A stretch of DNA of 64,000 nt from Treponema sp. (GTDB lineage Bacteria; Spirochaetota; Spirochaetia; Treponematales; Treponemataceae), in contig JAEESN010000013.1 of NCBI GenBank assembly GCA_016286365.1, forward strand, positions 1 through 64,000, written 5' to 3'. Position numbers and translations under genes: made by a program. Below the pieces are notes generated by a model. That model saw nothing but the letters and a program-made list of their open reading frames with translations. It searched no databases and was not told the DNA's origin. Shown here in pieces: positions 59,340-59,961 of this stretch (within the stretch, counting starts at the first letter, position 1; every line of letters begins with the position of its first letter).

Positions 59340-59440
59340 TGTTATCTGATTATCTGTCGTAAAAAACTCCCATTTTTTCTCATTTATTGCAAAAATCAAG
59401 CGTTTATGTTATTGTAACAATTATTAAATCATTATAACTT

Positions 59441-59513
59441 TGGGCCGTCGTCAAGCGGTAAGACACGGGCTTTTGGTGCCCGCATTCCACAGGTTCGAAT
59501 CCTGTCGGCCCAG
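59441..59513 (+). tRNA. tRNA-Gln (TTG)
   Basis: A 73-nt tRNA: acceptor TGGGCCG pairs with CGGCCCA, anticodon arm CGGGC-TTTTGGT-GCCCG (anticodon TTG), T-arm ACAGGTTCGAATCCTGT, discriminator G. CCA is not encoded. A TTGCAA...TATTGT promoter (59387-59415) is likely. Its last 18 bases are copied 237 bp downstream. Confidence 0.96.
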
Positions 59514-59533
59514 GTATTAAAGTTAAACAATAA

Positions 59534-59563
59534 AACCATTGCCAAAGGGCAATGGTTTTTTTT
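59534..59563 (+). terminator. Terminator of tRNA-Gln
   Basis: AACCATTGCC (59534-59543) pairs with GGCAATGGTT (59548-59557) around AAAG, then T8. Confidence 0.94.
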
Positions 59564-59591
59564 GTTAAAGTGAACGATTGAAACATTAAGT

Positions 59592-59925
59592 GCCGACAGG
59601 ATTCGAACCAAAGTGAGCGGCCGTAAAAAGGCGAAGACTTGGAGCGTTTTTACGGCAAATCCGACAGGACGTCGGATTTAGCGAACGAAGGCGCCGCAGA
59701 AGGAGAAAACAGGATGTTTTCGACTGTCGCGGCGAATCCTGTCGGCCCAGTATTCGAACAGCAAACTAATCCAACGTGGCGAATTCTTGTATCTTATTTT
59801 TCGCAGCGGGAGAAACAGTATGTTTCGACCAACGCGGCGAATCCTTACATTCAGTAGCCGTATAGCAACCCCATGTCTCATTACGAATTCACTCTTTCAG
59901 TAGCCGCACAGCCAACCCATTCTTC
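59592..59925. repeat. Structured repeat carrying copies of the tRNA-Gln 3' end
   Basis: This 330-bp non-coding stretch begins with a perfect inverted 18-nt copy (59592-59609) of tRNA bases 59492-59509. Hairpins follow: CCGTAAAAA/TTTTTACGG (59621-59629 with 59647-59655 less one offset base) and AAATCCGAC/GTCGGATTT (59657-59665 with 59671-59679). A GGAGAAA hairpin is GAAAAC/GTTTTC (59705-59710 with 59716-59721). Next comes a perfect direct 18-nt copy of the tRNA end (59733-59750), then the tail TTCGAACAGCAAA (from 59753). A second GGAGAAA-type hairpin (59812-59816 with 59822-59826), an 8-nt tRNA-end remnant (59838-59845) and two copies of TTCAGTAGCCG (59850 and 59896) finish it. No credible gene is present. 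The layout parallels that after 5S rRNA. Confidence 0.75.
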
Positions 59926-59932
59926 CGCCATA

Positions 59933-59961
59933 TTGCCACACCCCCATATTTCTGCTATTAT
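59933..59961 (+). promoter_or_regulatory. Promoter of rplY
   Basis: TTGCCA (59933-59938), a 17-bp spacer and TATTAT (59956-59961), 56 bp before rplY, just after the end of the repeat. Confidence 0.6.

Follow-up and report, generated by a model that had tools for sequence, protein, structure and literature searches.

From our analysis of a 64,000-nt stretch of Treponema DNA (the window) and of related genomes, we conclude that the segment at positions 59592–59750, downstream of tRNA-Gln(TTG), is one copy of a family of structured elements. Its members consist of an inverted copy of the tail of the adjacent tRNA gene (INV), a multi-hairpin core of ~105–130 nt and a direct copy of tRNA nt 56–73 (DIR), in this order. 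They are linked to tRNA genes, carry arms that follow the tRNA, share cores between tRNAs, and occur in tandem as well as in present and absent alleles. The element is probably a small selfish or recombining unit for which the tRNA tail serves as landing and recombination sequence. To the full reading, in which a small RtT-like element without genes resides at the 3' ends of tRNA and tmRNA genes, moves by recombination between tails and is mainly selfish, we give a probability of about 0.5.

The element behind tRNA-Gln

The sequence-only reading of the window had reported that the last 18 bases of tRNA-Gln (59496–59513) recur exactly at 59733–59750, and that 59492–59509 recurs inverted at 59592–59609; both were confirmed by sequence match. 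The tRNA itself aside, each copy is found once in the 64 kb. The longest shared word had 18 nt in either orientation, compared with 9 nt (direct) and 11 nt (inverted) in 500 dinucleotide shuffles drawn from the 411 bp downstream of tRNA-Gln, and the tail repeats are far beyond chance. The ~220 bp from the tRNA to DIR are filled by a terminator and the core (Table 1), and there is room for no gene between the tail copies. A promoter-like site (TTGCCA-17-TATTAT, window positions 59933–59961) lies right after the element, upstream of rplY, and is conserved in the sister genome G429. In element-free species, rplY is located directly 3' of the tRNA.

Table 1. Features of the tRNA-Gln locus and its element (window coordinates).
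Feature	Position	Strand	Evidence or remark
tRNA-Gln(TTG), host gene, tail copied	59440–59514	+	ARAGORN; Rfam RF00005 (59441–59513)
Intrinsic-terminator-like hairpin and T-run, between tRNA and element	59532–59563	+	Belongs to the repeated unit in many other loci; recurs after DIR in 39/72 loci
INV, inverted copy of tRNA-Gln nt ~52–69	59592–59609	+	Kept alone in sister genome G429
Structured core, model R1, 131 bits	59607–59733	+	Fold z-score −7.2
Core hairpin 1	59621–59655	+	Covarying helix 3
Core hairpin 2, loop AGGAC	59657–59679	+	Covarying helix 4
Core hairpin 3, internal GA/GA motif, loop AGGAT	59694–59732	+	Covarying helices 5–6
DIR, direct copy of tRNA-Gln nt 56–73 (T-loop to discriminator)	59733–59750	+	Sequence match
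Decayed second unit, hairpin 3 remnant, end = CGAATCCT	59802–59845	+	Self-match to element; repeat D2

The fold of 59585–59755 has an energy of −77 kcal/mol (z −7.2), and the Met copy of the element shows similar folding behaviour. INV and DIR form the closing stem, which has 14 bp (59592–59605 paired with 59733–59746), and the hairpins inside it contain conserved GA/GA internal motifs. INV is a constant component of the element, and the earlier remark that an inverted copy is foreign to ordinary att sites was right. Among 13 cores taken from several genomes (model R1), both sides had changed in 24 of 32 pairs, and 94% of the pair cells held standard pairs, compared with 33–47% in slid controls. 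Over 134 copies, 93% of the pair cells were Watson-Crick, 1.7% G-U and 0.7% A-C. Because of these both-side changes, the margin over the slid controls and the prevalence of Watson-Crick pairs, we conclude that the fold is real and strictly paired.

Arms and cores across tRNA genes

The surroundings of all 43 Rfam tRNA matches were scanned in the genome from which the window derives (G000; 2.68 Mb, 35 contigs). Inverted and/or direct copies of the own tail were detected behind Gln-ttg, Arg-tcg, Thr-cgt, Met (two genes), Pro-cgg, Pro-tgg, Gly-tcc and Leu-caa, on a common plan of tRNA, terminator, linker, inverted copy, GC-rich core and direct copy. The core motifs AGTGAACG... and GGCGCCGCAGAAGGAG... 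and the AGGAY hairpin loops are shared between loci, some loci (Thr, Met) contain two units in tandem, and the R1 matches in this genome are all directly behind tRNA genes (7/7). The sequence-only reading had proposed a search for other RNA genes trailed by copies of their own 3' end; there are many in the same genome, in addition to tmRNA in relatives.

A tRNA upstream on the same strand was recognised for 120 of the 134 copies, at a median distance of 74 nt and with 27 isoacceptors represented. The median match to the own tRNA was 12 nt for INV and 18 nt for DIR (nt 56–73), as against 0 for other isoacceptors. Two of the remaining 14 copies follow tmRNA and have arms of the tmRNA tail, six follow a tRNA 3' half, and most others are at contig edges. 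In the two loci behind tmRNA (ssrA; L109 and L164), the arms reproduce the 3' end of the tmRNA. The six tRNA 3' halves (L093, L124, L131, L098, L140 and L115) comprise nt ~52–73, with the 5' half missing, replaced or unrecognisable; L124 and L131 belong to different genomes and have similar upstream sequence. INV and DIR were complementary over at least eight consecutive bases in 92 of 132 copies, compared with 6% of mismatched pairs. Where the fit of INV to the two differed by at least 3 nt, the tRNA was the better match 27 times and the own DIR three times, and INV follows the tRNA even where DIR has been lost. Arms whose sole task was closure of the fold would not be expected to behave in this way, and an INV that outlasts DIR speaks for some role of INV itself.

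Integration sites in tRNA genes are expected to show identity over the block from T-loop to discriminator, and the element shares the direct repetition of this block with the tRNA att sites of tyrosine integrases. DIR could on this ground be part of a passive scar, in which attL and attR of a tyrosine-integrase island remain after the loss of the cargo and INV results from a chance inversion. We consider such a scar extremely unlikely and rejected it, since the same conserved core is found behind 27 isoacceptors and tmRNA; in addition, INV is regular, units form tandem arrays, and no cargo is present in the loci read. Unlike these att sites, the element has neither cargo nor integrase between its repeats, and has an inverted third copy, a conserved folded core and repeats that are re-made for each tRNA. 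The att-like insertion claimed by the sequence-only reading therefore stands as a unit tied to tRNA 3' ends, but not as an ordinary att pair.

The nearest core belonged to another tRNA of the same genome for 32 of 120 copies (permutation mean 2.1, maximum 8) and to the same tRNA of another genome for 36 of 120 (permutation mean 3.6, maximum 11). As an example from the own genome, the Arg-tcg core and the core of the second Thr-cgt unit are 87% identical. These nearest-neighbour counts indicate that cores are inherited at a tRNA and are also passed between tRNAs, while the arms are re-made.

R1 copies were detected in 45 of 296 sampled spirochaete genomes, often as arrays with a period of 160–180 bp, and their presence is patchy between close species. 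One copy (L223) belongs to Treponema bryantii, which is available in culture. A strict core pattern matched 104 stretches among 84,980 species genomes. Among the matches listed, all were from Treponema, Brucepastera or other spirochaetes, save a termite-gut Tannerella metagenome-assembled genome and one 'bacterium' bin, which are probably binning errors. The strict pattern was absent from viral contigs and the core from phage records, and among the matches listed for plasmid records the query matched through its tRNA part alone; a phage or plasmid origin was rejected on these grounds. None of the 4227 Rfam models matches the element in the window or at the own-genome tRNA loci, and we likewise rejected a known RNA family. 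A search of the literature on tRNA-linked repeats in spirochaetes and on RtT/tyrT repeats yielded no description of it, which is weak evidence of novelty as most subscription journals are outside the coverage of that search.

Filled, empty and altered alleles

An alignment of the spoVG–rplY interval had been suggested as a way to find empty sites, and alleles without the element do exist. In several species with the order spoVG–tRNA-Gln–rplY, the gap between tRNA and rplY is 38–56 nt and contains neither a run-of-T terminator nor an element. The comparison with the closest relative relied on a single sister genome, G429, which is 81% complete. Its Gln site consists of the tRNA, terminator, linker and an exact 14-nt INV, and then rejoins at the rplY promoter (59933) without core or DIR; it represents either a deletion or a partial site. 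At Met1, G429 has a single tail copy and the own genome an extra unit between two 22-bp tails, a clean filled/empty pair that insertion, or exchange or deletion between direct repeats, would explain equally well. In 39 of 72 first units, the stretch of ~60 nt that follows the tRNA recurs immediately behind DIR, and the repeated unit therefore includes the terminator.

The T-arm of the own tRNA-Thr (CTCGG/CCGGG) differs from that in G429 (GTTGG/CCGAC), and the first DIR of the own genome keeps the G429 version, so that the old Thr tail appears to have been displaced downstream into DIR. At Pro-tgg, the two sisters likewise have different T-arms, and in both the arms of the element agree with the local tRNA. 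T-arms that differ along with the arms, and an old T-arm kept in a DIR, would suit tail copies favoured by the host as spare tRNA 3' ends that absorb integrating elements or donate T-arms. We regard such decoys or reserves as very unlikely, as they leave the conserved core and INV unexplained and no island was found integrated at a DIR. At Met2, comparison of the own genome (L044) with G429 (L324) suggests that whole hairpins or cores are exchanged, because the core hairpin stems differ completely yet stay paired, in a setting of nearly identical arms and terminator.

The unit comprises tRNA nt ~52–73, trailer with terminator, linker, INV, folded core and DIR, and in our preferred reading it would be gained, lost and amplified through recombination at the tRNA-tail repeats. 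A single exchange between the tRNA tail and DIR would add or remove exactly one unit, yielding tandem arrays and clean empty sites, and would sometimes swap the T-arm of the tRNA for another version. Cores may enter other tRNA genes of the genome through a join at the T-loop, whose sequence is near-universal; the arms would then be copied, with the tail of the new host tRNA as the putative template. The core would act as a folded single strand. Recombination would be the mover, possibly with a trans-acting tRNA-gene recombinase, and the element would be mainly selfish rather than host-serving. Fold-back copying that began at a T-loop nick would account for the similar start positions of INV and DIR and for the variable length of INV.

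The nearly pure Watson-Crick stems, the movement of cores between tRNAs, and an INV of variable length whose start in the T-loop nearly coincides with that of DIR would also fit a Y1 (REP-type) transposase that acts in trans on hairpin DNA, or retrotransposition with priming at a T-loop nick, the arms being made by fold-back copying. We consider this unlikely. Y1 transposases (PF01797) occurred in 13 of 48 genomes and showed no clear link with the presence of the element, and reverse transcriptases (PF00078, RVT_1) in 14 of 48, again not tracking the element and with none in the own genome. Both were rejected as movers, since neither tracks the presence of the element, and the lack of a candidate enzyme among these two also counts against the recombining unit. 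The single Y1-type transposase of the own genome (G000:C29:76646–76969) has a 281-aa frame, long enough for the REP-associated (RAYT) type.

Relation to RtT RNA and other repeat families

RtT units (RF00391), known as the 178-bp tyrT repeats of E. coli, are located downstream of tyrT/tyrV. In E. coli, each unit is bounded by two copies of the tRNA-Tyr tail, inverted at its start (GGGGAAGGATGAGAA) and direct at its end (AATCCTTCCCCCACCACCA). The RtT of Salmonella and Klebsiella follows tRNA-Pro and its terminator, and its INV (GAGGATGAGAACCTCC) and DIR (CATCCTCTATCACCGACCA) both match tRNA-Pro. RtT thus resembles the spirochaete element in its tandem units behind a tRNA, its outer stem of inverted tail and direct 3' end, its branched core, and arms that switch between tRNA-Tyr and tRNA-Pro along with the host gene. 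It differs in that its DIR includes the encoded CCA, and was seen here at two tRNAs only, whereas the spirochaete family occurs at 27 isoacceptors and tmRNA. A common family is unsupported by the core: R1 scored only 7 bits against E. coli rttR (E 0.08 in 2.5 kb; not significant), the RtT model had no match in the window or at the own-genome tRNA loci even at E up to 2–5, and the spirochaete element does not reach the Rfam gathering threshold for RF00391 of 45 bits. Because architecture and arm tracking are alike and the cores are not recognisably related, we conclude from these sequence comparisons that the spirochaete element is of the same kind as RtT, and would work alike, but lies outside RF00391.

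The annotation of rttR as a small RNA in E. coli brings in the main rival to the recombining unit, a host RNA gene of the RtT type, which we consider rather unlikely. It would be transcribed by read-through from the tRNA promoter and cut by tRNA-processing enzymes at the tRNA-like 3' end to give a small RNA, in which INV pairs with the tail or with DIR as a switch. A strongly conserved RNA-like fold with covariation, and an excess of G-U over A-C in the element stems, could indicate such a host function. The excess (60 vs 24 cells, a count limited by the pair cells not being independent) hints that this strand matters. INV, moreover, follows the tRNA more closely than DIR and persists where DIR is absent. 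Against a host RNA gene, a strong terminator separates the element from the tRNA here, in the majority of the loci read, and at proK of Salmonella and Klebsiella, and no promoter-like site was found between tRNA-Gln and the element. Its patchy presence among close species argues in the same direction, as does the G-U content of its stems, 1.7% compared with 7.9% in the tRNA stems at the same loci, a scarcity that leaves open a role at the DNA level.

The element is, like REP/BIME elements and MITEs, short, gene-free, rich in hairpins and multi-copy, but its ends are not fixed and copy the adjacent tRNA, and it is confined to the tails of RNA genes. By analogy, its tandem units and putative folded recombination sites also recall integron cassettes (attC), from which it would differ in its gene-free units and in a tRNA tail in place of attI/attC. 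Among the families compared (transposons, integrons, REP elements and islands), none has ends that are copied from the host and re-made for each tRNA.

RtT, an odd repeat annotated as RNA of one E. coli tRNA operon, would become one case of a wider class, and the origin of RtT-like repeats becomes testable. More tentatively, and with the balance somewhat against it, these units may form a class of mobile elements in at least two bacterial phyla that lacks ends of its own, copies the local tRNA tail both ways at each landing, and in this way shuffles the 3' halves of tRNAs among species. The Thr and Pro comparisons suggest that units swap T-arms into tRNAs; if so, the units would contribute to tRNA evolution and to changes at the attachment sites that phages and islands use. 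The R1 covariance model and the list of loci are a ready search tool.

Two other cores occur in the own genome, type B behind Leu-caa and one Met gene, and type C behind the Pro genes; these are possibly further families of the same kind. The type B cores (L043:3124–3300, behind Leu-caa, and L047, behind Met1) are accompanied by direct tRNA-tail copies and have a different fold, and the type C core of L046 and L051 is GGGGGCTCATCGCCGCCCCC-like. Behind tRNA-Glu (ctc) on contig C4 of the own genome (L039:3140–3360), and at L327 of G429, there is a second tRNA-Glu-like copy, split behind its anticodon region by ~75 nt that contain the hairpin-1 motif of the element (AAAATTGCGAAAACTTGGAGCAATTTT), in the manner of an intron or of an element lying within the tRNA copy.
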